Origin: Rossellomorea aquimaris
GTDB taxonomy: Bacteria > Bacillota > Bacilli > Bacillales > Bacillaceae_B
Length of the DNA stretch: 64,000 nucleotides
Direction: 5' to 3'
Assembly: GCF_000935355.1 (NCBI RefSeq)
Contig: NZ_JXZC01000001.1
Span: 1,364,001 to 1,428,000, forward strand
Made by a program: the position numbers and the translations under genes. The notes beneath the pieces are model-generated. The model saw only the letters and a list, made by a program, of their open reading frames with translations. It was not told where the DNA came from and ran no database searches. How positions within the stretch are numbered: the stretch's first letter is position 1; each line of letters begins with the position of its first letter. Positions 11,971 through 62,383 of the stretch are shown here, one piece after another.

Positions 11971-12005
11971 AGAGGTCCGTCCCTCTAGACGGGGGACGGA
12001 CCTCT
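11971..12005 (-). terminator. yvgN terminator built from two GGGACGGACC motifs
   Basis: AGAGGTCCGTCCC and GGGACGGACCTCT form a 13-bp perfect stem, followed on the minus strand by six T residues, just beyond the yvgN stop codon. Each arm contains the GGGACGGACC motif that recurs elsewhere in the window. Confidence 0.88.
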
Positions 12006-12018
12006 TATAATATATCTA

Positions 12019-12849
12019 TTAGAAATCGAAGTTGTCTGGATCTGGACCGAAACGTTCGTCCAGGTTCAATCCGTTGATTTGGTTCATTTCTTCCAGAGAT
12101 AGCTCAAAGTTGAATAGATCTGCGTTTTCTTTGATTCTGCTTTCATGAACAGATTTAGGGATGATGATGACATCATTCTGAAGGTGCCAGCGCAGAATCA
12201 CTTGGGCAGCGGATTTCTCATGCTTTTCAGCAATGTGATTCAGGGTTGGTTCATCCAGTACACGCCCTTGAGCGATTGGTGACCATGCTTCCACTGCGAT
12301 ATTTTGTGATGCACAGAATTCTCTTATTTTTTCCTGATTCAGACGGGGGTGTAATTCGATTTGATTTAATACAGGTTTTTCATTGCCATTCTTCATCAGG
12401 TCTTCAAGGTGATGCTGATGGAAGTTACTTACACCGATGGATTTCACTAATCCTTCGCTATGCAGTCTTTCAAGTGCCTTCCATGTATCATTATACTTTC
12501 CTTCTACCGGCCAGTGAATTAAATAAAGATCCAAGTAGTCCATATCAAGTTTTTTCAGGCTGGTTTCGAATGCTTTCAATGTTGTATCGTAGCCTTGATC
12601 ACTATTCCATACTTTAGAGGTAATGAACAGGTCCTCTCTCGCTACTCCACCTTCTTTCACACCTTGACCTACACTTTCTTCATTGTCGTAGATCGCCGCT
12701 GTATCGATGGAACGGTATCCTGACTCAATCGCTGTTCGAACAGCTTGTACCGTTTCAGACGGATCTTTCATTTGGTAAACTCCTAAACCAACATAAGGAA
12801 TTTCGATTCCATTATGTAATGTCTTCGTACTCTTTAAGTTTTTTAACAT
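12019..12849 (-). CDS. yvgN: aldo/keto reductase, glyoxal/methylglyoxal reductase YvgN
   Basis: A 276-residue NADPH-dependent TIM-barrel reductase of aldehydes such as methylglyoxal. The AKR signature and tetrad are visible: DTAAIYDNE (Asp and catalytic Tyr), TSKVWN (Lys) and LIHWP (His). The cofactor motif IPKSVHESRIKEN lies near the C-terminus. Length and sequence follow B. subtilis YvgN. GGAGGG precedes the ATG. It has its own terminator and lies beside helD (YvgS in B. subtilis). Confidence 0.93.
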   Translation of the reverse strand: MLKNLKSTKTLHNGIEIPYVGLGVYQMKDPSETVQAVRTAIESGYRSIDTAAIYDNEESVGQGVKEGGVAREDLFITSKVWNSDQGYDTTLKAFETSLKKLDMDYLDLYLIHWPVEGKYNDTWKALERLHSEGLVKSIGVSNFHQHHLEDLMKNGNEKPVLNQIELHPRLNQEKIREFCASQNIAVEAWSPIAQGRVLDEPTLNHIAEKHEKSAAQVILRWHLQNDVIIIPKSVHESRIKENADLFNFELSLEEMNQINGLNLDERFGPDPDNFDF

Positions 12850-12937
12850 ATTGCATCCCTCCTGATTTATTATTTTACAAATTCATTCAGCTTTTTGCGA
12901 ATGTTATGATTGAAAGATTTGATTATATACTAAATTT

Positions 12938-12968
12938 AGGTCCGTCCCTCTCCATGAGGGACGGACCT
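12938..12968 (-). terminator. helD terminator built from two GGGACGGACC motifs
   Basis: AGGTCCGTCCCTC and GAGGGACGGACCT form a 13-bp perfect stem with a 5-base loop directly after the helD stop codon. The following tract is AAATTTAG, so the U-run is weak. Both arms carry the recurring motif. Confidence 0.75.
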
Positions 12969-12979
12969 ATTTCGTACAT

Positions 12980-15247
12980 TTACCGGCCGATAAATTGCTT
13001 TCGTCTCTTCCCGATAAACGCGAGCTTATGAAGGGGGCGCGTCATGGCCACGTATTGGAGCTTGATGTCGAGTTCGTTTTCCGGGTTGAATGCTTCATCC
13101 ACCGCTGCGATGATGACCACATCAAATTCAAGCCCTTTTGACAGATAAGATGGGACGACGACAATTTGATCTTTCGGGATCGATTCTTGTTCTTCCAACA
13201 ACTTCACTTTCCCGGGCTGACGTTCTTGAAGGATTTCGCTGATTTTCATACAATCCTTCATGCTTTTGCCGATCACAGCGAAGGTTTGGAATCCTTCTTC
13301 CCGTCCTGCACCCACCTTCTCCTCGATTCCGGAAGCCAATTCTTCCAATTCCACATATTCATCAAAGGTGGGAGAATCTCCGTGTCTCACCACTGGATTC
13401 ACCTTAGGAAAGTCATAAGGTAAGAGATTCAGCAGTTTATTCGCTTCCTCCATGATTTCAATCGTGGTCCGATAGCTTTTCTGGAGCTCAGTATAAGTAG
13501 CCCTCGGAAACACATCTCTATACACCGGTTCCCATGACTGAAGCCCACGATAGGAGTGAATCCCCTGGGCAAGATCCCCCACCAGTGTAAACATGTCGGT
13601 TTCAAGTGCCCTTTTCAAGGAATAAAGCTGCATATAACTATAATCCTGTGCTTCATCGATGACAATGTTTTTCGCTTTATAAAATTTATCGATTCCAAAT
13701 AAGTGAGTTTGCAAGTAAAGAAGAATGGCTAAGTCTTCTACCTCATACTGTTTCTTCTTCGCGTATTTCAACGTATATTGACTTAGCTTTTGTGCCTGCT
13801 GCATGCTTAGCTCACCTTTCGAGTAAGATGCCAGCCGTTTAGGATCTGAGAACAATTCTATGAAGTATTGATCCAGGTTTTTCTTTTCAAACTGCCTCAT
13901 GTAAGTTGTAACGCTTGTTCGGATCGCCTTCTTAATTTCTTCGACCCGCTCAATTTTTTTGTCCAATGCTTTTGATACATAGTCCTTCCGGTTTCCTGCC
14001 TGGGTCCGTTGAAAGAGCGCTGTTTCGATCCGTTCATCGAAAAACTTCTCTACCTTCTCCACCATCTGCTTCTTGTTCGTCCGAACATAGCTCTGTAAGA
14101 GAACCTTGAGTTTTTCCATACGGCGATAGATGGGCATATACGTATATTCATCTTTGAAAAGGTGGGTGAATTTTTTTGCCGTGTAGAGTTTGTATTTATC
14201 CACATAGAAGTCCTTTGACGTATAAAAGCGCTGTTCAATTTCTTCTATATAATAATCAAGTATTCTCCTGAAGGCTTTGGAGCCTTTAAACCCTGATATC
14301 CAGGAGGCAGTCTCTACGTCTCTATCATGGGTTTCAATCAACTGGATGAGCTTGTTATCTTCCACTAAATTCAGCTTTTTCTCTAAGCAGGTCATGACAT
14401 AGTCCGTGAACGTCGTTTGTCTTACCCGCTCCACCCCAAGTTCCGGCAGTGCTTCTGAAATGTAGTCGATAAACAAATTACTTGGTGCTAGGATCATCAG
14501 TTGTTTCGGGTCAAAATGCTGTTTGTAGTTGTAAATAAAGTATGAAATCCGGTGAAGGGCGATGGTGGTCTTTCCGCTTCCAGCGGCCCCTTGAACAATG
14601 ATGGGCTTGTTTAAATCAGCCCGGATGATCCGGTTTTGTTCTTCTTGAATGGTGGAAATGATCTCGGTTAAACGATTGCTGGAGCTTTTGGCTAATGAAT
14701 CCTGAAGCAGTTCATCTGTAGTTGTTAAGTCAATATCCCTGATTTCTTCTAACAAACCATCCTCAATCATGTACTGACGCTTTAATGAAAGATCTCCTTC
14801 ATAGGTCTCATCTTCCGCTTCATACGAAACGTCACCAATTCTTCCTTCATAGTAAAGGTTCGCTATGGGAGAACGCCAATCCACGATGATTTGTTCCTGA
14901 TTCTCCCTCTGATAAAGGGAAGTCTTTCCTATATAATGTTTCTCCACCTTATCAGAACCCTCATGTTGAAAATCAATCCGGGCAAAATAGGGTTTCGTCT
15001 TCGCTTTTGTAAGGGACTCCAGTTCTTCTTTAGACATCTCAAAGAAGCTTGAGTTCGTCAAGATATCGATGTACGCAGCACTCGATTCGCCCCAATCAAT
15101 ATCTCCAAAAGCTTTTTCCATGTTTTCCTTATACTTTTCCTTACTCGTCTGGGATGTGCTGATGACTACATCAATGTAGCGCTTCGTAAACTCCAGGCGT
15201 TCTGATTCAATTGAAAAATCGGGATGAATAGTCGATTCCTTCGTCAT
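12980..15247 (-). CDS. helD: RNA polymerase recycling motor HelD (UvrD/Rep-like ATPase)
   Basis: A 755-residue superfamily 1 helicase-like protein that removes stalled RNA polymerase from nucleic acid using ATP. A long charged N-terminal arm (residues 10-85) precedes the first ATPase lobe with Walker A GAAGSGKT (220-227). The Walker B is VIDEAQDYSYMQLYSLKRA, followed by LVGDLAQGIHSYRG and, in the second lobe, YLSKGLEFDVVIIAAVDEAF and AMTRPLHKLAFIG. Length and layout match B. subtilis HelD (YvgS). AAGGAG stands 6 bases before the ATG. Confidence 0.94.
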   Translation of the reverse strand: MTKESTIHPDFSIESERLEFTKRYIDVVISTSQTSKEKYKENMEKAFGDIDWGESSAAYIDILTNSSFFEMSKEELESLTKAKTKPYFARIDFQHEGSDKVEKHYIGKTSLYQRENQEQIIVDWRSPIANLYYEGRIGDVSYEAEDETYEGDLSLKRQYMIEDGLLEEIRDIDLTTTDELLQDSLAKSSSNRLTEIISTIQEEQNRIIRADLNKPIIVQGAAGSGKTTIALHRISYFIYNYKQHFDPKQLMILAPSNLFIDYISEALPELGVERVRQTTFTDYVMTCLEKKLNLVEDNKLIQLIETHDRDVETASWISGFKGSKAFRRILDYYIEEIEQRFYTSKDFYVDKYKLYTAKKFTHLFKDEYTYMPIYRRMEKLKVLLQSYVRTNKKQMVEKVEKFFDERIETALFQRTQAGNRKDYVSKALDKKIERVEEIKKAIRTSVTTYMRQFEKKNLDQYFIELFSDPKRLASYSKGELSMQQAQKLSQYTLKYAKKKQYEVEDLAILLYLQTHLFGIDKFYKAKNIVIDEAQDYSYMQLYSLKRALETDMFTLVGDLAQGIHSYRGLQSWEPVYRDVFPRATYTELQKSYRTTIEIMEEANKLLNLLPYDFPKVNPVVRHGDSPTFDEYVELEELASGIEEKVGAGREEGFQTFAVIGKSMKDCMKISEILQERQPGKVKLLEEQESIPKDQIVVVPSYLSKGLEFDVVIIAAVDEAFNPENELDIKLQYVAMTRPLHKLAFIGKRRKQFIGR

Positions 15248-15419
15248 ACATTTCTCCTTCCAAATGTTTTAACCACAATGGAGAATAAACGTCTCATCAA
15301 TCCCACTAAGGTAACGACTCTCTGTGGGGAAACGTTTAGAAAGACATATCGAAATCTGGATAAATTATGTAGGCGTTTGGGAGCAGGAATATATATTATC
15401 AGATAATTAGGGAAAGTTC

Positions 15420-15590
15420 AATAGAGAAAAGCGGAAGGGGCTTGCCCTGGGGCGACAAGCATAAGACGAGTAACCCGGAAAGGCGTTCTTTGCCTTTTTG
15501 GGTTACTCGTCTTATGACCTCGAGCCCCAAGCCCCTGGAGCTGGACATAGAGAAAAGCGGAGGCGGCGACAAGCATAAGGCTTAGCTTAA
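15420..15590. repeat. dispersed Bacillaceae repeat with 17-bp hairpin
   Basis: Part of a 900-base stretch without a large gene. AGAGAAAAGCGGA occurs twice (near 15423 and 15551), each followed by CGACAAGCATAAG, giving a direct repeat. Between them CATAAGACGAGTAACCC pairs perfectly with GGGTTACTCGTCTTATG (17 bp), with a second small stem in the loop. The AGAAAAGCGGA...GACAAGCATAAGAC core is a common dispersed intergenic element of Bacillus genomes. A minus-strand frame through it only echoes the repeat. Confidence 0.7.
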
Positions 15591-15742
15591 CAAATTGAAC
15601 ATGATTCATCGTGTGAATTTTCTGTATTTTGAAACTAATCATCTTTCTTTTCGTATGTATTTAGAGAAGGAAATCTTAAAATGGAGACCGACCACTGAAG
15701 TCATTCTGTTGAATATATAAAAATTTTAGGAGGCGAAATGTA

Positions 15743-15819
15743 TGGCTGAAGGTATGTTTTTACTAATGATTGTGTTAATAACTGTTGTAATCATCGGAAA
15801 AAGAAAAAAGAAAAAGTAA
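15743..15819 (+). CDS. possible very short membrane peptide
   Basis: AGGAGG lies 8 bases before an ATG that opens with MAEGMFLLMIVLI, a hydrophobic stretch. As numbered, the frame closes after about 15 codons (15790). A Lys/Arg-rich tail (GKRKKKK then TAA at 15817) lies just downstream but is one base out of frame; a single miscounted base would join them into a 25-residue membrane peptide. I therefore give the outer limits and low confidence. The strong ribosome binding site is the main evidence. Confidence 0.3.
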
Positions 15820-15983
15820 AGAGGGAAATTGACTAATGATATTAGGATGGAGGTAATTCTTTCGGACTAAGTATTAATAAGAATATAAATAATTATATCC
15901 AGTCCCAAAAAAACCGATATAAGTATTCAATTGGTTGAAGATATTTAAGAAGTAGGGACAGTTAATGAAGTAAAGATGGTGAA

Positions 15984-16017
15984 CTTATTCAACAAAAGGG
16001 TGCTTTTACTGAATAAG
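15984..16017. other. nested hairpin in the helD-kinB intergenic region
   Basis: CTTATTCA pairs with TGAATAAG around an inner AAAAG/CTTTT stem. No T-run follows, so it is not an obvious terminator; it may be a repeat remnant. Apart from this, the dispersed repeat and the short ORF, I see nothing else in 15250-16030. Confidence 0.4.
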
Positions 16018-16033
16018 AAGTTGATAAAAACGC

Positions 16034-16068
16034 AAAAAACCCAGAACCATTTAGGGGTCTGGGTTTTT
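16034..16068 (-). terminator. terminator of the KinB-like gene
   Basis: AAAAACCCAGA and TCTGGGTTTTT pair across a 12-base interval that itself pairs in part. A U-run is available in both directions. It lies 89 bases beyond the kinase stop codon. Confidence 0.7.
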
Positions 16069-16156
16069 ACTGTTAATTGCATGTTATTTACACTGTTATT
16101 TCTGATGCTAATTTGATTGTGTTTTAGGTGTTCCCTCCCTAAACGGAACCCGTTAC

Positions 16157-17425
16157 CTATAAAGATGAAGGGCCTTTCATACGATCCACGGGAAACACAA
16201 TCTGAAAACTCGTCCCCTTGCCGACTCTACTTTCAACTGTAATGACGCCTCTCATCGCTTCAATGATACGATAGGAAACCATAAGCCCAAGACCCGTTCC
16301 TTTCTCTTTCGTAGAAAAATAAGGTTCACCCAGCCTGGCTTGTTGTTCAGGGGTCATTCCGACTCCAGTGTCAGTAATGGAGATACTGACGTTCCCCTTT
16401 TGAACCTTCGAAAGTATCGTGAGGGTCCCCCCCTTTGGCATGGATTCAATCGCATTTTTGATGATGTTGAGAAATGCTTGCTGAAAGCTTCGTGTATTGC
16501 CGACGATGGTGGCGTCGCTGATGCTATTATGCACTACCACCGACTGCTGGTTGCTCAGTGGTTCGACCATATCGACGAGCTTATTGAGTTGCTCAGAAAT
16601 GGAGATGTTCTCCACATGATCAGGGTCTGGCTTAGCAAATGTAAGATAGTCGTTGATGATTTCTTCTGCCCGTTTCAGTTCTGAGGATGCGATCGCTAAG
16701 TATTGTTCTTTTTTACCTACCGGAAGATTTTCTTGATTGAGCAGTCTCAGAAACCCTTTAATAACGGTTAAGGGATTCTTCACCTCATGTGAGATGCTGG
16801 CTGCCAACTGAGACAGTACTTCCATTTTTTCTATTTTCACGAGTGCTTGTTTAATTTGGATCTGTTTCAGCAATGTCTCACATATGTATGTCAGGATAAG
16901 CATTCCCAATGAAGGGAGTAAGATGAAATTAATCAAATAGCTTTCATCAATCACGAACACGGTCATGGCATTGGCAATAAGGGCTGCTACTATGGAATGG
17001 ACGGTAAAGAGCATCACTGAGAAAATGATCTTCTTCCGACTGGTTAACCCGTCGAAATCGAACCACTTCATCCCGATAACCGTCAAGATGTAAATCACCA
17101 CATAAATCACAAAAGCCACTATACTCCACCCATATATCATTGTCCTGGAAACCAATAAGACAGCTAAAAGTGCAATCCCCGTATAGGGTCCTCCATACAT
17201 AACCCCGAGTACAAAAGGGATCATCCGTAAATCATGAACGCAGTAAGGATTTTGATAGATAGGGGAAAGCATGCACAGGATAATGGCCACACTCAAAGAA
17301 ATAAGGGTTGCAAACCTTGTATACCAGCCCTGTATCATTTTTCTTTCAACAAGGAAAAAAATTAAAAAAATACTCAAAATGATATAAAAGAAATTATTAA
17401 TAACATCCTGATTAAAGATAATCAT
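16157..17425 (-). CDS. KinB-like membrane sensor histidine kinase
   Basis: About 422 residues. Six hydrophobic segments of the 5TMR-LYT type fill the first 180 residues. The phospho-acceptor His is in QLAASISHEVKNPLTVIKGF, followed by the N box (NIIKNAIESMPKGG) and ATPase motifs TDTGVGM and KGTGLGLMVSYRIIE. This resembles B. subtilis KinB, which feeds the sporulation phosphorelay. No response regulator adjoins it, as expected for a phosphorelay orphan kinase. I prefer the ATG at 17425, preceded by AAAGGTCAAAGGG, over an upstream TTG at 17446 without a ribosome site. The exact input and the phosphorelay role are inference. Confidence 0.85.
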   Translation of the reverse strand: MIIFNQDVINNFFYIILSIFLIFFLVERKMIQGWYTRFATLISLSVAIILCMLSPIYQNPYCVHDLRMIPFVLGVMYGGPYTGIALLAVLLVSRTMIYGWSIVAFVIYVVIYILTVIGMKWFDFDGLTSRKKIIFSVMLFTVHSIVAALIANAMTVFVIDESYLINFILLPSLGMLILTYICETLLKQIQIKQALVKIEKMEVLSQLAASISHEVKNPLTVIKGFLRLLNQENLPVGKKEQYLAIASSELKRAEEIINDYLTFAKPDPDHVENISISEQLNKLVDMVEPLSNQQSVVVHNSISDATIVGNTRSFQQAFLNIIKNAIESMPKGGTLTILSKVQKGNVSISITDTGVGMTPEQQARLGEPYFSTKEKGTGLGLMVSYRIIEAMRGVITVESRVGKGTSFQIVFPVDRMKGPSSL

Positions 17426-17531
17426 ACTTACCCTTTGACCTTTCAAAGATATTGTCTACTTCATAGAAATTCTACCATACTACTACGAGAATCGTTACAA
17501 TTATATGTGTAATCTTGCATTTACATAAGAC

Positions 17532-17559
17532 AACTCTCCTGTAACTGTACAGGAGAGTT
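17532..17559 (-). terminator. hairpin after the ATP-grasp gene
   Basis: AACTCTCCTGTA/TACAGGAGAGTT form a 12-bp perfect stem with a 4-base loop just after the stop codon at 17566. The tract downstream is only moderately T-rich (GTTGTCTT). Confidence 0.65.
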
Positions 17560-17565
17560 ATCAAC

Positions 17566-18504
17566 TTACACAGTTTTTAATTGTTCACCAAGATATTTTG
17601 CCAGCTCAAGCATCCCGTATTGTCCGTACTTCGACTCGGCATCCTTGTTGTAATTTGTATTGGTGTTCACATCATACGTGTAGATGGTGCCTTCTTTGTC
17701 TTGAATGAATTCTATCCCGGCTACATCAATCCGGTTTCCTTTTAAGAATGCTTCGTAGGTTGAAAGGATTTCATGGGAAAAGTTTTCCCTGATTTGGAAC
17801 TTAGGCTTCTCCTCTTGCTCCCCCACTGGACAGAATAAATCATCGACCTGACAGACATCAGCCGGACATAGTTCAAATCCTTTTGACGTATCCACCTTCA
17901 CAGCATAAATGAATTTGCCGCCAATGAACTCACACCGTGTAATCGAAGCGTCTGGTGCTTCGATGTATTCCTGGATAAGCGTCGTTCCGTCTAACGGTTC
18001 TTCAAACGTATCGCTGGATACATAGTTTTTCAAAGCATCAACTGAATGAAACAGCTGAACTCCCAATCCTTTTCCAGCACGATTATGCTTGGTGATAAAG
18101 GATGGTTTATCAAGCTTTTCAGCCGCTTCGATTATTTGCTCTTTTCCAACGGCCGCAATGGTTTTAGGTGTCTTGATGCCTGCAGCGTTCAAGGCCATAT
18201 ACTGATTCACCTTACTCACTTCCAACCGAAGGGCACGGCTTCCATTCAGTACCTTTCTATCATATCTTTCTAACCAAGAAAGAACGCTTTCCGTTAACTC
18301 AGGCGCAAAACGATGATTTCGCGTATGGGAAGATGCACTGATTCGATTATAGAAAACACCTTCTGGCGGTTCTGATGATAAATCGACGACTCCTTGATCC
18401 AGGAACCATTCCTCATAAGGCAATTGAAGCTCGTCGAGACGAGTCGTTAAATGATTGGTCCAATCACTGTTTTCATGAATAATATGAATTTTTTTCACGA
18501 TCAT
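17566..18504 (-). CDS. ATP-grasp ligase, RimK-like
   Basis: A 312-residue ATP-grasp enzyme resembling the RimK/alpha-L-glutamate ligase group, which joins an amino acid to a carboxylate. The central region has KPSFITKHNRAGKGLGVQLF (ATP-binding strands and glycine-rich loop), TTLIQEYI, and the metal site DVAGIEFIQDKEG...YDVNTNTNYN. Its real substrate is unknown. The ATG at 18504 lies only 2 bases after GGGG; a GTG at 18498 is better spaced and may be the true start. It stands alone with its own hairpin. Confidence 0.8.
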   Translation of the reverse strand: MIVKKIHIIHENSDWTNHLTTRLDELQLPYEEWFLDQGVVDLSSEPPEGVFYNRISASSHTRNHRFAPELTESVLSWLERYDRKVLNGSRALRLEVSKVNQYMALNAAGIKTPKTIAAVGKEQIIEAAEKLDKPSFITKHNRAGKGLGVQLFHSVDALKNYVSSDTFEEPLDGTTLIQEYIEAPDASITRCEFIGGKFIYAVKVDTSKGFELCPADVCQVDDLFCPVGEQEEKPKFQIRENFSHEILSTYEAFLKGNRIDVAGIEFIQDKEGTIYTYDVNTNTNYNKDAESKYGQYGMLELAKYLGEQLKTV

Positions 18505-21663: not shown

Positions 21664-23382
21664 TTAAAAGAGCACGCTCTTTTCAATCTGCTTCATTTCA
21701 TAGAAGTATCCTTTTGCCTTCATTAGCTCTTCAAACCCTCCTGCCTCCACAACCTTTCCTTGATCCATGACGATGATTTGATCCATTTCCTCAAGTCCTG
21801 TCAAGCGGTGACTGATCAGGATCAGTGTATCACCATCCGCTTCTGTATAAAGATGATTAAAAATCTCTCTTTCCATCAAAGCATCTACAGAAGATGTCGG
21901 TTCATCGAGCATCCATAAGGTTGATCCTTTCAATAGGGCCCTGGCAATCGCTAATCGCTGCTTTTCTCCACCAGAAAGATTCTCGCCTTTTTCTAATACG
22001 GTGTCCTCTAAAGAAAAGTGATCCAACTTCACTATTCCAAGTGCCGATTCCATTTCCCCGTCTGTCAGATCATCACGCACCAGCATAAGATTTTCCTTCA
22101 TTGTGCCGTAGAAGAAATGATTTTCTTGAAGAACCACATTGGCATGCTCCCATAACGACTCTTTATCGATATCTTTCATTGAAGCATCATTCACGAAAAT
22201 CGATCCCTGATCCGCTGAGTAAAAGTTTAATAACAATTGAAGCAATGTGGACTTCCCTGATCCCGAAGGTCCCACGATCGCCGTTTTCGAGCCTGCAGGC
22301 AGCTCAAGACTCACCTCTTCCAATGCCTTTCTTTCCTCTCCGTCGAAGGAAAAGCTGACATCCTTCATGCTGAATGATGGAGCATCCCCATCAAGAGTCC
22401 CGCATAATGAAGGTCCGTCCCTCTCGATGCGTTCTTCGGGAAAAACAGAAGAGAGTCTGGCTGCCGCTCTTCGTGAATCTTCATAGTGTATAGGCAGAAT
22501 CGCCATTGGTGTGGCATTTTCGAATACGGTTAAAGAGATCATGACAAGCATCGCAAGATATATTCCATCCATTTGACCTGCCCCGACTGAATAAGCTCCT
22601 AAAGCCAAAACGATCCATGAAATGAGCTGGGAAACCAGGATGTTCGTTGAATGACTATAGAGAGAATAGATGCTCTCCCGTTTTTGCTCGCTCACATATC
22701 CTGCTGCTGCTTGAACAAGACTTTTCTCTTTGTCCTCCAATCTTTGATATATTTTCAGATCTCTGAATCCATAAAGAAATTCAGTTACCTCTGTGGATAA
22801 ATCCCCTCGTCTTTCCCGTAAGGTCGTTTCTATTTTTCTCTGTTTAAAAGCAAAATAAGCCGGGACCATAAATCCCGTCAACAGAAGCCCCCCAATAAGG
22901 ATCAATGCAACAGAAACAGAATAAAACATCGTAAACAAGATCGTACTTAAGAACACCATCACCAGGATAATCGGTGGATAGAAGACACGAAGAAAGAAAT
23001 TCTGTAAACTCTCTACATCTCCTACGATTCTTGAAAGAAGATCTCCACTTCGATATCGCCCGAAAATCCCCGGCGCCAGCGGCTCGATTTTTTCATAGAT
23101 GGAAACCCGCAAGTTCGAAAGAATCGTGAACGTAGCCCGATGGGAGAAATAACGTTCCGCATACCGGCTTAATGCCTTCGTGAAACCGAACAGCTTCAAG
23201 AGAGCAATCATTACCGTCAGAGCATAAAGAGGTACCTCCAAGGCCGCTTTAGAAATTAAATAGCCACTGGAGGCAAATAGTCCGACCGAGGTTAACCCGG
23301 CCAAAAAGCCAAAAAGAATAGAATACACCATATCCTTCTTTTCCTTCATCATCAGCCTTACGACAAACCCTAACTCTTTCAT
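21664..23382 (-). CDS. cydC: thiol reductant ABC exporter subunit CydC
   Basis: A 572-residue half-transporter with six membrane helices (1-310) and an ABC domain: Walker A GPSGSGKST, signature LSGGEKQRLAIARALL, Walker B TLWMLDEPTS. CydDC exports glutathione or cysteine-like thiols and is needed for assembly of cytochrome bd. Its ATG follows the cydD stop codon without a gap, so the two are translated from one message. The linker between the domains (ERIERDGPSLCGTL) is encoded by DNA carrying a GGGACGGACC copy. Confidence 0.92.
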   Translation of the reverse strand: MKELGFVVRLMMKEKKDMVYSILFGFLAGLTSVGLFASSGYLISKAALEVPLYALTVMIALLKLFGFTKALSRYAERYFSHRATFTILSNLRVSIYEKIEPLAPGIFGRYRSGDLLSRIVGDVESLQNFFLRVFYPPIILVMVFLSTILFTMFYSVSVALILIGGLLLTGFMVPAYFAFKQRKIETTLRERRGDLSTEVTEFLYGFRDLKIYQRLEDKEKSLVQAAAGYVSEQKRESIYSLYSHSTNILVSQLISWIVLALGAYSVGAGQMDGIYLAMLVMISLTVFENATPMAILPIHYEDSRRAAARLSSVFPEERIERDGPSLCGTLDGDAPSFSMKDVSFSFDGEERKALEEVSLELPAGSKTAIVGPSGSGKSTLLQLLLNFYSADQGSIFVNDASMKDIDKESLWEHANVVLQENHFFYGTMKENLMLVRDDLTDGEMESALGIVKLDHFSLEDTVLEKGENLSGGEKQRLAIARALLKGSTLWMLDEPTSSVDALMEREIFNHLYTEADGDTLILISHRLTGLEEMDQIIVMDQGKVVEAGGFEELMKAKGYFYEMKQIEKSVLF

Positions 23383-37043: not shown

Positions 37044-37176
37044 GAATAAAGTGAAGGTGGACGGACCTTCAGGCTTTGTGTTTTATAAGAAGGGTTCTTC
37101 TTTTATGTATCAAAACCCTCTTCCCCCATGAAAATAGTAAAGAGCCCCTCCCCAGAACGAATGAGCTCTTCCTATC

Positions 37177-52783: not shown

Positions 52784-52786
52784 GGA

Positions 52787-54040: not shown

Positions 54041-54712
54041 GTGGAAATCACGATCGATTCATCCATAACGTCCAAAATCCCTGATTTTAAAGTGGGCTTC
54101 ATTCAATACCATCATATCGAAGTCGGAGCTTCTCCTCAAATGCTGAAAGGCAGACTTCAGCTATTCCAGGAATCCATCTTCTTTGATCTTCATGATAAAA
54201 ATGTGACAGAACTGGAAGGGATCGCGGCGTGGAGGGATATCTTCAAGAAAACAGGAAAAGATCCGAATCGCTACCGTCATTCAGCCGAAGCCCTCTTTCG
54301 CCGGGTTAAAAAACAGAACTACCTGAGCACCATAAATTCAGCCATCGATCTCAACAACTTCTTCTCCCTTCAATACGAAGTGCCCATCGGCATCTACGAC
54401 TGTTCAGGTCTCAAGGGGGATGGCATCGAGTTAAAAGTGGGGGAAACAGGACAAACCTACATAGGGCTCAACGGGCGGGAAAATTCCCTTGAAAACCTGA
54501 TTGTCGCATGTGACGGGGACGGACCTTTCGGAAGTCCATTCGTCGACTCAGACCGGGCCCCCGTCGGTGAGGGAACCAAAAATGCCGTTCAGATCATCTT
54601 TCTGAAGCCTTTCCTTTCTATAGAAGAAAGCGGGAAACTGACGAAATCGTTGATGGATATGTTCATCAGGATCCATGGTGGAGAAGGATCGTTTGAAGTG
54701 GTGTGCGGATAG
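54041..54712 (+). CDS. B3/4 (tRNA editing-like) domain protein
   Basis: A 223-residue protein with the B3/B4 fold of the editing site of phenylalanyl-tRNA synthetase beta (KTGKDPNRYRHSAEALFRRVKKQNYLSTINSAIDLNNFFSLQYEVPIGIYD). Free-standing versions may clear mischarged tRNA; that is inference. GGAGGG lies 7 bases before a GTG start. A GGGACGGACC copy sits in-frame at 54515, encoding DGDGPFG. Single-gene unit divergent from queG. Confidence 0.85.
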   Translation: MEITIDSSITSKIPDFKVGFIQYHHIEVGASPQMLKGRLQLFQESIFFDLHDKNVTELEGIAAWRDIFKKTGKDPNRYRHSAEALFRRVKKQNYLSTINSAIDLNNFFSLQYEVPIGIYDCSGLKGDGIELKVGETGQTYIGLNGRENSLENLIVACDGDGPFGSPFVDSDRAPVGEGTKNAVQIIFLKPFLSIEESGKLTKSLMDMFIRIHGGEGSFEVVCG

Positions 54713-54751: not shown

Positions 54752-54872
54752 ATGGAGATTGTACGATAATCCATTGCTGATCTTCAGAAATCTCAGCCGA
54801 TCTTAAAGTTCTAAAGCATATTCCATAGACAAAGTGGCATTTCCAGCCCGATTTCGACCATGGCCGCGAGTC

Positions 54873-54998
54873 AATCCGGCGGAAAGCCACGATGATCCAG
54901 CCGTTTTTCCCGATAATCCAGCCGAAATCACAATTAATCCGGCCATTTCTTGTGAAAATCCGGTCGATTTTACAAATAATCCAGCCGATTTACATTAA
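54873..54998. repeat. second 21-bp tandem repeat array, six units
   Basis: Six 21-base units start at 54873, 54894, 54915, 54936, 54957 and 54978. They open with AATCC(A/G)G(C/T)C(G/A) or close variants. The period, core and A/T-rich variable tail equal those of the array at 25387. It lies in the 378-base gap between two convergent genes, the only other content of which is the terminators. Confidence 0.8.
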
Positions 54999-55052
54999 CT
55001 GCAAATTAAACACTGCATATGAGCGACTATCACTATCGCGCCAGTACCCCAC

Positions 55053-55090: not shown

Positions 55091-56059
55091 CTACACCCAC
55101 CACATATCCGACGGCTGCTCTTCAATCAAGATAGATTTCAAATTCTTCACCGCACGTCCAAAGCCTTCTTCAATCGACATGATCGGATCCTCGTGCTCAA
55201 TGCTTACGACATAATCGTATCCGAATGTGCGCAGCGCACTCATCATGTCGGACCATTCCTGCAAGCTGTGCCCACAGCCCACTGAGCGGAATGACCAAGC
55301 TCTTGTCTGGATGCTGCCGTAGGGCTGCATATCCGTCAGACCGTACATGTTGACGTTATCCTGGTCGATATACGTATCTTTCGCATGGAAATGGTGAATC
55401 GCATTTTCTTTTCCCAGGATTTTAATCGCGGCAACCGGATCGATTCCTTGCCACCAAAGGTGACTGGGATCCAGATTCGCACCGATCGCGTCACATGTTT
55501 CTTCACGAAGCTTCAACAACGTATATGGAGTATGGACAAGGAAACCTCCGTGCAGTTCAAGACCGATCTTAACATTATGATCCTCTGCAAGCTGACCCAT
55601 CTCTTTCCAATATGGAATCAACTTTTCTTCCCATTGCCATTTAAGGATATCCCCATATTCATTCGGCCAAGGGGATACAGGCCAGTTTGGGTGCTTTGCT
55701 CCTTCATGGTCGCCTGCCGTTCCTGAGAAACAATTCACGACAGGTACGTTCATCAGTCCGGCAAGCTTGATCGTTTTCTGAAGTGCCACATGGGATTCTT
55801 CCGCAAAAGCTGCATCTGGCGAGATCGGATTTCCGTGACAGCTGAAGGCACTGATTTGAAGTCCTCTCGATGTTACTTTTTCTAAGTATTCGTTTCTCTT
55901 TTCTTCACTTTCTAAAAGAGCGTCCAGGTCACAGTGAGCATTTCCAGGATATCCTCCCGTGCCGATTTCAACTGCGTGAAGTCCGGCTTCTTTTACATAA
56001 TCCAGCATTTCATCAAGATTCTTCTGTGAAAATAATACAGTAAATACACCTAGTTTCAT
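55091..56059 (-). CDS. sugar phosphate isomerase/epimerase (TIM-barrel)
   Basis: A 322-residue xylose-isomerase-like TIM barrel. Predicted metal ligands: Glu in IGLELHGGFLVH, Asp/His in ANLDPSHLWWQG, His in HHFHAKDTYID and Glu near the C-terminus (VVSIEHEDP). Members include IolE, hydroxypyruvate isomerase, and the YcjR epimerase of 3-keto sugars. AGGAGG precedes the ATG. It is last in the run ThuA - dehydrogenase - dehydrogenase - isomerase. Confidence 0.85.
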   Translation of the reverse strand: MKLGVFTVLFSQKNLDEMLDYVKEAGLHAVEIGTGGYPGNAHCDLDALLESEEKRNEYLEKVTSRGLQISAFSCHGNPISPDAAFAEESHVALQKTIKLAGLMNVPVVNCFSGTAGDHEGAKHPNWPVSPWPNEYGDILKWQWEEKLIPYWKEMGQLAEDHNVKIGLELHGGFLVHTPYTLLKLREETCDAIGANLDPSHLWWQGIDPVAAIKILGKENAIHHFHAKDTYIDQDNVNMYGLTDMQPYGSIQTRAWSFRSVGCGHSLQEWSDMMSALRTFGYDYVVSIEHEDPIMSIEEGFGRAVKNLKSILIEEQPSDMWWV

Positions 56060-56071
56060 TTGTGCTTCCTC

Positions 56072-57112
56072 CTATTTCAATCGGATGCTTTGTCCGGTTT
56101 CACTGCTTTTGTAAATGGCATCAATGATTTGAGACACTTGCATGGCTTCCTGGGGCTTCACAACCAGCTCCTCTAAACCGAGACAGCTGTTGATAAAGTT
56201 CCGGGCTTGTGGAAGACTCGGATCATCTTCACCGGGAACCCAATCCGCTTCACTATTCAAAAGCATGCCATGTTTCATTTGGTTCATTTGGAACGGGAAT
56301 AGATCGATTCCCCCCGTTTCGCCTGAAATGCTCATGCTTTCTTCATCGCTCTTGACGTTTGCAGACCAAGACGTTTCAAAGAGCATGGAAGCACCGTTAT
56401 CGAACTTGATATAAGCCGTGACATGGTCGTCGACTTCAAATTTCTCTTTATCAAAGTCTCCCCACAGATTCACTTGATCTGGCATTCTACTAAGCTTGTT
56501 ATAGGCCGTCCCTGTTACTTCGACAGGTGCAGGGTTCCCAAGGAGCCATATGGATAGATCCAGAAAGTGACACCCGTAGTCGATCAGGCTGCCACCACCT
56601 TGAAGCTCCTTATTGGTAAATACTCCCCAGCCAGGAACTTTGCGGCGACGTATCGCCCTTGCCCGTGCGACCATTGGTTCACCGATTTCATCTTCCAGGA
56701 TGACACGCTTTGCCGCACGTGAATCCTTCATGAAACGATAATGATAGGCGATAGCCAGAACCTTCCCTGACTGTTCCGCAGCTTCGATCATCATTTCACA
56801 TTCTTCAGGAGTCATGGCCATCGGTTTCTCACAAAACACATGGAGCCCGGCTTTGAGCGCTGCAATCGTGATTTCCGCATGAAATTTATTCGGAGTACAG
56901 ATCGTCACAGCATCCACATGCCCGAACATGTCCCGATAGTCACTGAACACGTTCGGAATGCTAAAGGTTTCTGCCACGGTTTGAGCAGTGACAGGATTGA
57001 TATCACTGATCGCTTCAATGGATACAGAATCTGAAAGTTTTATAAAAGTAGGGATGTGGCGCGTTTGGGCAATGCCCCCTACGCCGATCACTCCCATCCG
57101 AAGTTTAGTCAT
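56072..57112 (-). CDS. Gfo/Idh/MocA-family dehydrogenase A
   Basis: A 346-residue NAD(P)-dependent sugar dehydrogenase. Rossmann loop GVGGIAQTRHIPTF at the N-terminus, the catalytic Lys in FCEKPMAMTPEE, and the substrate-domain motif GGGSLIDYGCHFLDLSIWLLG with a conserved Asp/His. I chose the ATG at 57112, about 9 bases after AGAGGTG; a GTG at 57124 overlaps that site. It may oxidise a sugar ring hydroxyl. Next to a second paralog and an isomerase. Confidence 0.87.
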   Translation of the reverse strand: MTKLRMGVIGVGGIAQTRHIPTFIKLSDSVSIEAISDINPVTAQTVAETFSIPNVFSDYRDMFGHVDAVTICTPNKFHAEITIAALKAGLHVFCEKPMAMTPEECEMMIEAAEQSGKVLAIAYHYRFMKDSRAAKRVILEDEIGEPMVARARAIRRRKVPGWGVFTNKELQGGGSLIDYGCHFLDLSIWLLGNPAPVEVTGTAYNKLSRMPDQVNLWGDFDKEKFEVDDHVTAYIKFDNGASMLFETSWSANVKSDEESMSISGETGGIDLFPFQMNQMKHGMLLNSEADWVPGEDDPSLPQARNFINSCLGLEELVVKPQEAMQVSQIIDAIYKSSETGQSIRLK

Positions 57113-57129
57113 TGCTGCATTCACCTCTA

Positions 57130-58155
57130 TTACAATTTTACAATCCGTTTTGTTTCACTTGATTCCAAGGCAGATAATACCACTTCTAACGATTTCTTTC
57201 CTTCTTCCCCTGGAACAGGAGGCTCTGCATCATGAAGGATGCTGTCGACAAATTGATCGATCACACGGGAATTCGTCTGACCGCCCTCGTCATTTGTCTG
57301 AATACCGCCAAGCTCATACTTCACCACTTCTCCGCTTGAGTATTGAACGATGAGAGAGTTGACCGGATCATCCTCTAAACGTAGGATGGCCTTCTCTCCA
57401 TAAATGATCGTAGAGTTGTCTTCTTTCGAAACATAAGACCAGCTTGCTGCAAGGGTACCGATTGTACCGCTTTCGGTTTTCAATACACAGACAGCCGTAT
57501 CATCCACATTTGCATTTTCCTTTGCACTTGTTTCAACAAAGGCACCGACTTCTGCAAATTCTTCCCCTAAGATGTACCGAAGGAGATCGGTTTTGTGTAC
57601 ACCAAGGTCACCCATGGCACCGATGAACGCTTCATCTTTTTTAAAGAACCAGCTGTCTTTCCCGTCAGCACTCCAGCCTTCAGGTCCACCGTGACCAAAT
57701 GCAGAACGGAAGCTGTAGATTTTACCTACTTCACCACTTTCAATCAGCTGCTTCGCTTTTTGATGAGAAGGGACAAATCGCTGGTTATGAGCGATCATCA
57801 GTTTTTTACCGTTTTTAACAGCGGCATCGATCATGCCTTGAGCTTCTTCACTTGAAGTGGCCATAGGCTTCTCACATAATACATGCTTACCCGCGTTAAG
57901 TGCATCGATGGAAATCGGAGCATGCAGGTAGTTCGGTGTACACACACTCACAGCTTCCACTTCAGCGTTTGCCAGTAGTTCTTTATGATTGGTATACGCT
58001 TTCGCTCCGACGGCATCGGCTATTTTCCATGCCCGTTCTTCCACGATGTCACACACTGCTACCACTTCAACGTTTTCATTGTTTGCATATTCCGGCAGAT
58101 GACGATGCTGGGCGATGCTTCCACACCCGATAACCCCGATTTTTAATTTACTCAT
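57130..58155 (-). CDS. Gfo/Idh/MocA-family dehydrogenase B
   Basis: A 341-residue paralog of the next gene: GCGSIAQHRHLPEY (cofactor loop), CEKPMATSSEEA (catalytic Lys), and FIGAMGDLGVHKTDLLRYILG (conserved Asp/His). The pair may work as oxidising and reducing partners, as in known keto-sugar pathways. GAGGAGG precedes the ATG. Eighteen bases separate it from dehydrogenase A, so they share a transcript. Confidence 0.88.
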   Translation of the reverse strand: MSKLKIGVIGCGSIAQHRHLPEYANNENVEVVAVCDIVEERAWKIADAVGAKAYTNHKELLANAEVEAVSVCTPNYLHAPISIDALNAGKHVLCEKPMATSSEEAQGMIDAAVKNGKKLMIAHNQRFVPSHQKAKQLIESGEVGKIYSFRSAFGHGGPEGWSADGKDSWFFKKDEAFIGAMGDLGVHKTDLLRYILGEEFAEVGAFVETSAKENANVDDTAVCVLKTESGTIGTLAASWSYVSKEDNSTIIYGEKAILRLEDDPVNSLIVQYSSGEVVKYELGGIQTNDEGGQTNSRVIDQFVDSILHDAEPPVPGEEGKKSLEVVLSALESSETKRIVKL

Positions 58156-58177
58156 GATTTTTTCCTCCTCTTGTTCT

Positions 58178-58903
58178 TTAGTTAGATCCTTTGATTTCTT
58201 CTAACGGCTGTGCGTTTCCGTATACCGGTCTCGCATGATCTACAGGTGATGCCCATTTCACTGCATTGACGATGACCTTCTGAACGTCTTCATTGTAATA
58301 GGTCGGATACGTTTCATGCCCCGGACGGAAATAGAATACTTTCCCGTTACCACGCTGATACGTACACCCGCTCCTGAATACTTCCCCACCTTCGAACCAG
58401 CTCACCATCACAAGCTGATCAGGGGCCGGGATGTCAAAATGCTCCCCATACATTTCTTCCTTTTCCAGTTCGAAGTATTCCCCTAAACCGGCTGTAATCG
58501 GATGGCTTGGATCGACAATCCAGATGCGTTCTTTCTCATCAGCTTCCCGCCATTTTAAATCACATGAAGTGCCCATCAATGTTTTGAAGATTTTAGAGAA
58601 ATGGCCTGAATGAAGGACGATTAAGCCCATTCCGTCAAGGACACGCTGCTTCACTCTTTCAACCACTTCATCAGACACTTCATCATGGGCGATATGTCCC
58701 CACCACACCAATACGTCTGTACCATCCAACACATCTTCCGTCAATCCATGCTCATTTTCGTCTAATGTAGCCGTTTTCACATTGAATGATGCTTCTCCCA
58801 GGAAGGAGGCAATGGCGCCATGAATTCCTTCAGGGTACACCTCTCTCACTTTCGGATTCTTCTGTTCATGACGATTTTCATTCCATACTGTAACGTTCAA
58901 CAT
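58178..58903 (-). CDS. ThuA domain protein (trehalose utilisation-like)
   Basis: A 241-residue glutamine-amidotransferase-like fold of the ThuA family. Motifs: [66 protein letters not shown] and [22 protein letters not shown] [13 protein letters not shown]. In rhizobia ThuA and ThuB (a Gfo/Idh dehydrogenase) convert trehalose-type disaccharides to 3-keto derivatives. GGAGG precedes the ATG, so it is the first enzyme gene of this run, 15 bases after the regulator gene. Confidence 0.88.
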
Positions 58904-58918
58904 TGTAAAACCTCCAAG

Positions 58919-60493
58919 TTATGTGTTTGATTGTAAGTGCCGGTATTCATTCGGTGTCATACCGACGTGCTTCTTAAATACTTTGCTGAAATATTTCTCA
59001 TTCCCATACCCTACACCATAGGCGACTTCATAGATTTTTAAATAAGGATTTTCAAGCAGTTTCTTTGCTTTTTCCATCCGGATATTCGTAACGTAATCCG
59101 TGATGGTAGATCCATAATCCTGTTTGAACTTACGTGAGATATATTCCCTGCTTAGGTAAAAGCGATCGGCAATGTCTTGAAGATTGATTTCCTCTTGATA
59201 ATGCTGCTGAAGATATTCTTCAATATGCTGCATATTGTTCTTTTCCCGCTGATACTTTGCCTTTGAGAGGGTTTGAATTAATTCACTGAATTCTTTCGCT
59301 TTTTCCTCTTTAAATTTCCTGAACGAAAACGAGCCGTCTTCATTCCAATAATCCAGGCCTCTATAAAATTGTGCTTGATGCTGAATCTCATACTCTTTCA
59401 ACCAATTATTCCGTAATAACTCAAATTGATTTTCCCATACCTGGAGCTGCTCCAGTGAGAGTGCATGACCTGTTTCCAGCTGTGAAAATACCCTGTCCAA
59501 CTGGGATTGAACCTGCTCCCGGCTCCCTGAACGGATTGCCCATTTCAATTCATTGGAGTGATCCAGCAAATGCAGAAGGGGCTGTCTATTGACATCTTTA
59601 TGGGTGACGATTTTCTTTTGATCAAGCAGGGAATGCTTAAGATAAACCTGTAAAGCAGATTCATACGCTTCGTTTACTTTCTTAGACTTCTGTCCAAGTG
59701 CAATGATCGTAAAGAGTTTACTATATTGATAGATCAATGAATAGATTTCTTCTAACAGATACGTCACATTTTTATCGTTCCAGAAGAGAATCACAAGCTC
59801 TTCCTCTTTGTTCCCATTACGGAAGCAAACCCCATCATTTTGCTTTCGCAGCAATTCATTGCAAATATTGCTAAGGGTAAAGAAGGCAAGGTCCCGGTCT
59901 CCTTGAAAGAGCTTCTCCACGATCGGTTTGATGGGGATGAGGGCAACGGTCTTTTGCAACTTTGTAATGGCAATCCCAAACTCCTGTTCAACCTTTTCTA
60001 CCATTTCTGTGGTAATACTCTCCTTCGCACAGAGACTTGAGAATAACCGATCCCAATATAGGGGCTTTACCTCATTCATCACTCGATTTTCCTCGACTTG
60101 GGATTTTCTTGATCGAGCCTGGTCATTCCACTCTTTTACCGCTTTATCCAGCGTTTCATTTAACACATCCGGTTCAATCGGCTTCAGAATATAATCAAAG
60201 CTTTTATAAAAGATCGCGTTTCTCATATACTCGAAATCATCATACCCGCTTACAACGATGGTTTTGCTTTTAAGGTCAGAGGCATGAAGCCATTTCAAAA
60301 GATTGATGCCATCCCGCTTCGGCATCCTCATATCAGTGAAAATGATTTCCGGCCGGTGCTCTGTGATCAATTCGATGGCTTCGTCCCCATCTTCTGCCTC
60401 CAGAATGGTGTGGATCCCATGCTTGTCCCATTCCGCTAATAAAAGTAACCCCTCACGCACATGCTTTTCGTCGTCAATGATGATTGCTTTCAT
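58919..60493 (-). CDS. AraC-type response regulator (YesN-like)
   Basis: A 524-residue regulator. The receiver domain spans residues 1-120 with phospho-acceptor Asp54 in FTDMRMPKRDG and the KPIE segment near 106. A long linker follows. The C-terminal AraC helix-turn-helix pair is LQDIADRFYLSREYISRKFKQDYG and IYEVAYGVGYGNEKYFSKVFKKHVGMTPNEYR. GGAGGG lies 8 bases before the ATG at 60493. It overlaps the kinase gene, and is predicted to activate the surrounding sugar genes. Confidence 0.92.
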   Translation of the reverse strand: MKAIIIDDEKHVREGLLLLAEWDKHGIHTILEAEDGDEAIELITEHRPEIIFTDMRMPKRDGINLLKWLHASDLKSKTIVVSGYDDFEYMRNAIFYKSFDYILKPIEPDVLNETLDKAVKEWNDQARSRKSQVEENRVMNEVKPLYWDRLFSSLCAKESITTEMVEKVEQEFGIAITKLQKTVALIPIKPIVEKLFQGDRDLAFFTLSNICNELLRKQNDGVCFRNGNKEEELVILFWNDKNVTYLLEEIYSLIYQYSKLFTIIALGQKSKKVNEAYESALQVYLKHSLLDQKKIVTHKDVNRQPLLHLLDHSNELKWAIRSGSREQVQSQLDRVFSQLETGHALSLEQLQVWENQFELLRNNWLKEYEIQHQAQFYRGLDYWNEDGSFSFRKFKEEKAKEFSELIQTLSKAKYQREKNNMQHIEEYLQQHYQEEINLQDIADRFYLSREYISRKFKQDYGSTITDYVTNIRMEKAKKLLENPYLKIYEVAYGVGYGNEKYFSKVFKKHVGMTPNEYRHLQSNT

Positions 60494-62285
60494 TTGCTTC
60501 ACCCTCCATTCTTATTGGCAGTCTCATGGTGACCATAAAGCCTCCCTCATCATGATTTTCAAGCTGTAAAGTGGCATGGTGATCATAGTAGAGCTTTAAG
60601 CGAACGTAAACATTCTTCAGCCCAATATTGGTCTCATCCCCTGTTTTATTCCATGCATCTGCTTTAAAATGGTCCCTTATATCAAGAAGTCTGCTTTCCG
60701 TTACTCCAACACCATTATCACGGACAACCATCACCAACTCTTCCTCATCCTGAAAGCAAGATAGCCGTATACGCCCTACCCCGTCCCGGATATCGAATCC
60801 GTGCTTGAAGTAGTTTTCAATGAGAGGCTGAAGGATCATCTTCGGTACTGGGATCTCCATCACCTCATCTTCTACCTCTACACTGTAATCCAGATTTTCA
60901 CCAAAACGTTCTTTTTGTAAAAGAAGGTAGGCGTTCGTGTAATTGATTTCCTTGCTTAATGGAACAACATCCTCCTCCATATTCATCCCGTACCTCATAA
61001 TTTTGGAAAGGTGGGTGATCAGGGAGTAGATTTGCGGAACCTTGTTCTTTAAAGCAATCGTTCCAATGGATTGCAGGGCATTATAGAGAAAATGCGGATT
61101 GATTTGAGACTGGAGGACCTTTAATTGATTCGTCTTGTTCTCAAGTTCGAGCTTGTACTCACGATTGATCAAATGATTGATCCGCTCGATCATCTGCTGA
61201 AACCTGAAGCCAAGGATCCCGATTTCATCGGAACCGAACGATTCAGGCTGCACCTTCATATTCCCTTTTTCAACCTGTTGGATATTTTGAAGCAGAATCC
61301 GTATGGGTGAAGTAATTTTAAAAGAAACAAATAGTGTCGCAAGCACCACAAGGGATAGCCCAAGAACTCCAAACAGGATATTAATCTTTGCGACACTAAA
61401 TGCGCTTTCATAAAGATTTACGTAAGGAACCCGCTTCACTAACAGCCAACCGCCGGCCGAAGCTGGTAGCTGGTCGTACATCATAACCCCGTTGAAGGAG
61501 TCCTCCTTCCACTCGAGGGTGCCTGATACATCCTTTGATTCCATTATCCTCTTAATCCACTTCTGGTTGTTGCCATCGTCCGACACATCCCGGTCCGAGC
61601 TATAAATCATTTCCCCTTCCGAAGAAAGAAGATAAAATTCCTCTGACTTAGCGTTATACAGGTTTCTACTCAAATCTATGATTTTGTCAGGAGAGACCTC
61701 CAGTGAAATATACGCAAGCACCTCATCACCGGGAACGTTTCGGAATGCCCGGTGAATCGTGACAATATCCTTCGAACGGTTAATATTCTTTTCTTCCTGA
61801 CTATGTGTGGGTTCAATATACATGTTATAAGGGCTGCGTTCTGCATTTCTGAAGGATTCCCATTGAGAATCCCTTACCTTACTGGAAAATACGACAGTAG
61901 AGCGCTTTGTTGCCGAAATGACGCGTTCACCATCTGCGAAGGAAATTCGTACCCCGTTAATGGTATCACCCGTGTAGAGAATCGTTTGCACAACATTCTT
62001 TACAATGCCGATCGTCAAGTAATTATTCTCTTGGCCGGGTGATCTCATGAAATTAATAAAATCAGGATTATTATAAAGTGATAGCGTTAACCCGTTGAGC
62101 TCATTAATATAGCTCTCCAGATTCACCTTTCCCTGATAAAGAAGATTGCTGCTCTCCTCCACCACCTGCTCCTCTATGGAATCCTTCGTATACAAATATG
62201 TAATAATAATCGAACTGCCGAACGGCACAATCGTCGTAATCATCAACAACACAATCAACTTATTCCGAATGCTGGTCTTTAACAT
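60474..62285 (-). CDS. YesM-type membrane sensor histidine kinase
   Basis: A 603-residue kinase. Two membrane helices (about residues 12-32 and 295-320) flank an extracytoplasmic Cache-like sensor domain. A HAMP segment (FKITSPIRILLQNIQQVEKGNMKV) follows, then the phospho-acceptor His in QSQINPHFLYNALQSIGTIAL and ATPase motifs (LIENYFKHGF, DNGVGV). The GGAGG used to start it is part of a GGGACGGACC copy. It likely senses an extracellular sugar or its binding protein. Confidence 0.92.
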   Translation of the reverse strand: MLKTSIRNKLIVLLMITTIVPFGSSIIITYLYTKDSIEEQVVEESSNLLYQGKVNLESYINELNGLTLSLYNNPDFINFMRSPGQENNYLTIGIVKNVVQTILYTGDTINGVRISFADGERVISATKRSTVVFSSKVRDSQWESFRNAERSPYNMYIEPTHSQEEKNINRSKDIVTIHRAFRNVPGDEVLAYISLEVSPDKIIDLSRNLYNAKSEEFYLLSSEGEMIYSSDRDVSDDGNNQKWIKRIMESKDVSGTLEWKEDSFNGVMMYDQLPASAGGWLLVKRVPYVNLYESAFSVAKINILFGVLGLSLVVLATLFVSFKITSPIRILLQNIQQVEKGNMKVQPESFGSDEIGILGFRFQQMIERINHLINREYKLELENKTNQLKVLQSQINPHFLYNALQSIGTIALKNKVPQIYSLITHLSKIMRYGMNMEEDVVPLSKEINYTNAYLLLQKERFGENLDYSVEVEDEVMEIPVPKMILQPLIENYFKHGFDIRDGVGRIRLSCFQDEEELVMVVRDNGVGVTESRLLDIRDHFKADAWNKTGDETNIGLKNVYVRLKLYYDHHATLQLENHDEGGFMVTMRLPIRMEGEANESNHH

Positions 62286-62383
62286 GAGGGACGGACCTCC
62301 CAGGTCTCACTTATACACTAGTATAAAGTGTTTTTCCCCGCTCTTGGAAGTATTTTTTCGAAATATTCCTATTAAACTTATAA

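Follow-up and report, generated by a model that had tools for sequence, protein, structure and literature searches.

A conserved 10-nt word of the Rossellomorea chromosome, probably the repeat word of a vertically inherited RAYT beside the hut operon

What kind of element is a 10-nt word that recurs in exact form both inside genes and as inverted pairs between them? The question is raised by GGGACGGACC, which occurs seven times in a 64-kb stretch of the Rossellomorea aquimaris genome (C1:1364001-1428000 of assembly G000, 4.30 Mb in 44 contigs; hereafter the window). An initial annotation, made from the letters of the window, had likened the word to the DNA uptake sequences of Haemophilus and Neisseria, with a terminator-derived repeat as the alternative. 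The explanation that we prefer, at a probability of roughly 0.6, is that the motif is the repetitive extragenic palindromic (REP) word of one vertically inherited REP-associated tyrosine transposase (RAYT) of the HUH/Y1 type, encoded beside the hut operon, and that it has turned into a conserved chromosome-wide site of this protein, as sequence comparison suggests. The clade-specific shift from a REPIN to a conserved chromosomal word is the new point.

The abundance of the word rules out a chance origin. Indeed, exact copies number 357 in the whole genome, with 188 on the forward and 169 on the reverse strand, whereas the reversed control sequence occurs 7 times; a detailed sample of 864 kb (C1:1-800000 plus the window) holds 53, with 0.51 expected under a trinucleotide Markov model. 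In the window, 10 matches with at most one mismatch are found, while dinucleotide-shuffled versions averaged 1.66 matches with a maximum of 4, and none of the 100 reached 10. In parallel, one-mismatch forms are hardly over-represented in the 864 kb (26 observed, 18.4 expected, 1.4 times). The 53 copies comprise 14 inverted pairs and 25 singles: seven pairs have their starts 16-21 bp apart in both arrangements, seven have them 41-105 bp apart, all with the forward copy preceding the reverse one, and 16 of the 25 singles, nearly a third of all sampled copies, lie inside open reading frames (ORFs; mechanical gene calls, at least 80 codons). The word is therefore neither near random frequency nor confined to hairpins. 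In G000 and the complete genome G032, coding (38), single intergenic (29) and paired (93) copies have one flanking logo in common, with (G)A before and T(Y) after the word; thus there is one word of about 12-14 nt, whose extended form GAGGGACGGACCTY reads as the mini-hairpin GAGG-GACGGA-CCTC. The 38 coding words, pooled from both genomes and in part orthologous, run in gene sense in 28 cases and opposite to it in 10, which makes a transcript-level signal unlikely. The strand-bias check called for in the initial annotation showed no overall bias (188 and 169 copies), which also speaks against a strand-oriented replication signal, as judged over the whole genome.

Across 36 genomes of the genus, copy number is bimodal: 22 hold 258-391 copies (high-copy) and 14 hold 1-33 (low-copy), and 25 genomes of other families hold 0-10. 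In a quick tree of glpK and hutU, 20 of the high-copy species form one clade (SH-aLRT 94), and G024 and G030 sit on long, unresolved branches. Two Y1-transposase genes are present in the R. aquimaris genome. The first (C43, L031) has five exact words around it, including two inverted pairs, and the second (L032) has no flanking words. In all 22 high-copy genomes the first gene has an ortholog of 67% identity or more, the best match in the 14 low-copy ones being at most 59% identical, and each of the 22 high-copy loci contains 2-7 exact words in about 3.5 kb, which is the REP trait of repeats that flank their RAYT. At seven of these loci, 47 of the 105 words round the gene fall in ORFs (at least 130 codons). 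Since the ortholog comes with flanking words in 22 of 22 high-copy genomes and the five diverged RAYT loci inspected come with other words, the motif is most likely the recognition word of the first RAYT.

The protein itself is consistent with this assignment. It matches the Y1 transposase domain PF01797 with 57.9 bits (cut-off 23) and scores 76.7 bits against the NCBIfam family REP_Tyr_transpos (cut-off 80), compared with 22 bits for IS200. The motifs N-H-x-H-L and Y-I-H-x-N-P are invariant across 18 aligned RAYTs, and the HUH and tyrosine motifs stand in one frame at 21 of the 22 high-copy loci, G005 being the exception. A phmmer search against PDB sequences returned no match for the protein; with Foldseek, the AlphaFold model (pLDDT 87) of the 93% identical G010 protein found as its best match the complex of a RAYT with a REP hairpin in entry 4er8 (E 2e-9). 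By sequence and predicted structure, the protein thus appears closer to RAYT than to IS200 transposases, with an HUH motif and a putative catalytic tyrosine. The gene has a median dN/dS (nonsynonymous over synonymous substitution rate) of 0.051 at a median dS of 1.29 (143 pairs from 18 high-copy species).

The position of the gene links high-copy and low-copy species. RAYT and hutU lie 3.1 kb apart in R. aquimaris and 2.4-3.0 kb apart in low-copy G018, G002, G023, G008 and G033, a like distance from which we conclude that this is one vertically inherited locus whose word has changed. Indeed, each of these five relatives has a word other than GGGACGGACC to go with its diverged RAYT at the hut locus. 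The dialect GGGACGTACC occurs 221 times in G023, the remaining 35 genomes of the genus having 0-11 copies each, and GGGACGGTTCTC has 116 in G018, 118 in G002 and 0-46 in the other 34; both are found round the RAYTs of their own genomes, and GGGACAGTCC lies around the RAYTs of G008 and G033. G030 has no hutU, and beside its RAYT lies a gene distantly homologous to the RAYT neighbour of R. aquimaris. G001, G020 and G026 have both the hut locus and this neighbour but no RAYT in the 20 kb read, and these genomes hold 9, 10 and 6 words. The neighbour gene encodes a protein of 160 amino acids (L031:703-1185) that was seen in G000, G032, G024, G023, G018 and G030 and persists at the RAYT-less hut loci; the same search did not find it at the G033 and G008 loci, and it matched no Pfam or NCBIfam family.

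The dialect words of the relatives have the anatomy of REPs. In G018 and G023 they sit in long REPs with recurring pair spacings of 38-39 bp and 30 bp, respectively, and few fall within ORFs (0 of 23 in G018, 6 of 33 in G023, 0 of 16 in G033 and G008 together). In a survey of Firmicutes, in which 110 RAYT loci were read, many were ringed by a short word of their own and a good part had no clear word. The most word-rich of these other loci have 2 of 39, 0 of 21, 0 of 17 and 0 of 13 words in ORFs, and some word-poor ones have a larger ORF share (6 of 10 at L164, 4 of 6 at L166, 4 of 7 at L188). As a separate observation, GGGACGGTTCTC also occurs as a second word in G032 and G004, embedded in hairpins where read and in one-strand clusters: round a second RAYT at G032:C1:4156164-4178579 (partly L284; 7 of 7 on one strand), at G032:C1:815261-880508 (7 of 7), and round a second RAYT at G004:C5:181-36184 (8 of 8).

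How the R. aquimaris word came to lie in genes can be read from orthologs. For 14 coding singles sought in nine relatives, ortholog DNA was obtained for 12, and from high-copy species for 10. All 39 alignments with high-copy orthologs are gap-free and 32 have the exact word, whereas none of 24 low-copy orthologs has it; in these, 2-6 bases of the word differ while the encoded residues are identical or similar. Low-copy alignments do contain gaps for CydC, TrpF and one B3/4 protein, one gap falling at the word itself. Gap-free alignments between high-copy species, together with other codons in low-copy relatives, mean that the coding copies are not insertions, and REP insertion into genes is therefore rejected; they arose by base substitution, several as synonymous recodings. 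The copies have also been kept. In a control analysis of 29 coding words (864 kb of G000, 220 kb of G032), 20 had at least one high-copy ortholog and the other nine were dropped. The exact 10-mer is present in 91 of 106 high-copy orthologs, compared with 2369 of 7956 (29.8%) control 10-mers of the same phase in the same fragments (Fisher 1e-32, a nominal value as species are not independent), and in 0 of 23 low-copy orthologs (control 49 of 1826). Third-position identity is 0.962 inside the word and 0.706 outside, in an earlier run in which words were partly double-counted. In particular, 20 of the 22 high-copy genomes have the glpK word and none of the 14 low-copy ones does; the two hutU words are found in 21 of 21 and 19 of 21 high-copy genomes and each in 0 of 12 low-copy ones; at the first hutU word the residues differ too, with GTDLE in high-copy and GTEIE or GLE-type in low-copy species.

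Between genes the picture is similar. For 12 intergenic paired words (160 kb, compared with G032, G016 and G003), 27 of 36 comparisons were exact, two were not and seven could not be aligned, with flanks down to 58-66% identity in places and a spacing that drifts (57 and 49 bp). Thus, at orthologous sites most copies are unchanged, both in coding sequence and, where alignment is possible, between genes. Such near letter-perfect retention between species points to a chromosome-wide function, as far as sequences can tell.

The likeness of this system to REPs and REPINs with their domesticated RAYT (TnpA-REP) transposases lies in a vertically inherited HUH/tyrosine transposase, short flanking repeats, inverted hairpin doublets and hundreds of copies. 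Passages in PMC8049555 give 91-323 as the relevant range for REPINs and describe RAYTs as vertically inherited single-copy genes. The differences lie in the word. REP/REPIN anatomy, namely a palindromic REP of 20-40 nt, doublets of set spacing, decayed singlets and an extragenic location, is replaced here by a bare word of 10-14 nt without a GTAG tag, pair spacings of 16-105 bp and exact singles. In PMC3116915, only 14 of 1,067 REP 16-mers of Pseudomonas fluorescens overlap genes and singlets are regarded as decayed remnants, unlike the Rossellomorea singles, most of which lie in ORFs, are exact and, where coding, were born by substitution. REPs inside genes are described in PMC3733652 as insertions that break into ORFs and lengthen the encoded protein; more than half are dimers or groups, which encode 20 to 30 amino acids. 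Both families thus have members within ORFs, but the Rossellomorea copies insert nothing. The HIP1 word of cyanobacteria (GCGATCGC) is likewise very frequent and short, with a function described as unsettled (PMC4390886). It is, in contrast to the non-palindromic, RAYT-linked word of Rossellomorea, a perfect palindrome linked to methyltransferases. Searches of the literature on RAYTs, REPINs, uptake sequences and coding REPs turned up no comparable case, as judged from search listings, and among 16 papers containing either 10-mer none was, by its title, about bacterial repeats.

A mechanism can be proposed for the preferred reading. RAYTs bind and cut folded single-stranded REPs, according to PMC8266576. 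The Rossellomorea RAYT, by family a hairpin-binding nuclease for single-stranded DNA, would recognise the word through its mini-hairpin when it is single-stranded, the predicted target being GAGGGACGGACCTC, and the contact would give word-bearing DNA an advantage. Dispersed RAYT sites may serve the host and be maintained by purifying selection, or there may be a bias in recombination or copying. A specific form of the latter, which we regard as speculative and rather improbable, is that RAYT binds the word where DNA is single-stranded, as on import by transformation or at gaps, and favours recombination or in-place copying, so that drive spreads the word and keeps it exact; this would amount to an uptake-sequence-like system in a Gram-positive host, evolved from a REPIN. 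Some inverted pairs may double as terminator hairpins.

Along the chromosome the word is patchy. In G032, with 100 of 120 places seen, two zones of 670 kb and 589 kb lack the 14-nt form; simulation gave P 0.0001 for the largest gap. A 20-kb sample at 1.6 Mb, inside the first empty zone, held one copy of the 10-mer, and none was found in six G032 samples of empty or sparse zones at 1.8, 2.0, 3.0, 3.2, 3.4 and 3.6 Mb; in R. aquimaris no exact 10-mer occurs from C1:660595 to 1045275. At the other extreme, a 58-kb stretch holding the RAYT gene has 31 words, where the average of the genome concerned is about one per 12.6 kb. GC content or divergence as the cause of the empty zones was unsupported in the few stretches compared.

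These properties can be set against other explanations. Uptake sequences of Neisseria and Haemophilus are 9-12 nt long, are made by substitution and have dialects. A DNA uptake sequence in Rossellomorea would mean that competent cells favour word-bearing DNA and that molecular drive spreads the word, with RAYT merely sharing it or having given rise to it. Much of the analogy drawn in the initial annotation stands: the word is strongly over-represented, exact, dispersed, present in genes in both orientations, born there by substitution, arranged as hairpin pairs between genes, kept at orthologous positions and exchanged for dialects in relatives. The ORF share of uptake sequences, 65% in H. influenzae and 35% in N. 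gonorrhoeae with about 10% in inverted repeats, also fits, according to PMC1939737, where over-representation graded by similarity is reported as well; the latter would contrast with the small excess of one-mismatch forms seen here. Against the analogy, the word is tied to RAYT: it flanks the gene in 22 of 22 high-copy genomes, and the dialect follows RAYT and was found, in the sampled low-copy relatives, within REPIN-like elements that lie mainly outside ORFs. The large empty zones and the crowding of words round RAYT are likewise unlike uptake sequences, as is the Gram-positive host. We know of no uptake reader in Bacillaceae. All in all, this explanation is unlikely.

The word might also be the binding site of another chromosome protein, such as a nucleoid, segregation or regulatory factor, with a RAYT locus that merely contains sites. 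A pattern of dense and empty zones that looks common to two species would suit such a factor, as would the exactness and conservation of the word and its lack of orientation bias over the genome; that the dialect changes along with RAYT divergence at the same locus, and that relatives show REP-type anatomy, makes it quite improbable. Hardly any weight remains for an ordinary selfish REPIN or a terminator-derived repeat whose coding copies would be insertions or chance matches. Flanking inverted pairs round RAYT, the 14 pairs in 864 kb and a plausible terminator in the window are what it would predict, but it is already contradicted by the conservation of the coding copies: their gap-free alignments and synonymous recodings, the third-position identity, the scarcity of decayed forms and the flanking logo common to coding, single and paired copies all stand against it, and terminator origin, the alternative named in the initial annotation, leaves the coding copies unexplained.

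Several points weigh against the RAYT-word reading as well. The link between RAYT and the word consists, at the level of sequence, in location and co-variation within one genus, and shared ancestry explains part of it, as 20 of the 22 high-copy species are one clade. The empty zones are left unaccounted for. In G005 (L091) the RAYT is split over two frames, owing to either recent loss or a sequencing error, yet 303 words are retained; the NCBIfam score of the R. aquimaris protein lies just below the cut-off. Some coding words are poorly kept (that at C1:22303 is exact in two of five orthologs), and the B3/4 word of the window has no stable hairpin of its own. Lastly, high-copy genomes contain up to 46 copies of GGGACGGTTCTC, which are ascribed to a second RAYT on the basis of G032 and G004 only.

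The Rossellomorea clade bears on the question of what REPs and long-lived RAYT genes do. Here a RAYT word appears to have moved out of the REPIN and, by substitution, into coding sequence, where it stays exact while synonymous sites of the RAYT are near saturation. With hundreds of defined sites, hut loci without RAYT that can serve as natural controls, and sister species whose REPIN-like elements use a different word, the question is directly testable.

In the window, all seven exact copies are where the initial annotation had placed them, and its gene contexts hold. Hairpin 1 joins the words at 11974..11983 (minus) and 11993..12002 (plus), and with its clear U run (11971-12005) it is terminator-like on the minus strand, behind an aldo/keto reductase gene. 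Hairpin 2, with words at 12939..12948 (minus) and 12958..12967 (plus), lies behind a UvrD-like helicase gene (12980-15247, minus strand). The two fold at -28.6 and -28.8 kcal/mol, respectively, with none of 200 shuffles as good. The reading of the pairs as terminators is plausible for hairpin 1; hairpin 2 passes the terminator scan with a weaker tail. Both arms of hairpin 1 and the left arm of hairpin 2 are exact in aligned G032, G016 and G003, and the right arm of hairpin 2 is exact in G032 and G003 with one mismatch in a long G016 alignment; the loops of both hairpins differ from the window in these genomes.

Three copies are single. The word at 22412..22421 (minus) lies in gene sense in an ABC transporter gene (21664-23382; cydC-like, and cydC in the initial annotation), where it encodes R-D-G-P; it is exact in four of four high-copy orthologs (G003, G010, G016, G032) and missing from low-copy G026 and G027, whose alignments contain gaps. 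The word at 54516..54525 (plus) encodes G-D-G-P in a B3/4-domain gene (54041-54712) and is exact in four of five high-copy orthologs, with 3-5 mismatches in four low-copy ones. The third, at 62288..62297 (plus), is two bases upstream of the start codon of a YesM-like histidine kinase gene (60474-62285, minus strand); it spans the Shine-Dalgarno sequence and spacer and has one mismatch in G032, the one relative compared. The one-mismatch copy TGGACGGACC at 37058..37067 (plus), also reported initially, was found again but is not counted as a member, as one-mismatch forms are near chance level; two more such matches, at 10350 (plus) and 34451 (minus), had not been listed. Finally, behind the B3/4 gene, units resembling aatccagccgattt are repeated several times in intergenic DNA at 54860-55000, as seen by eye.

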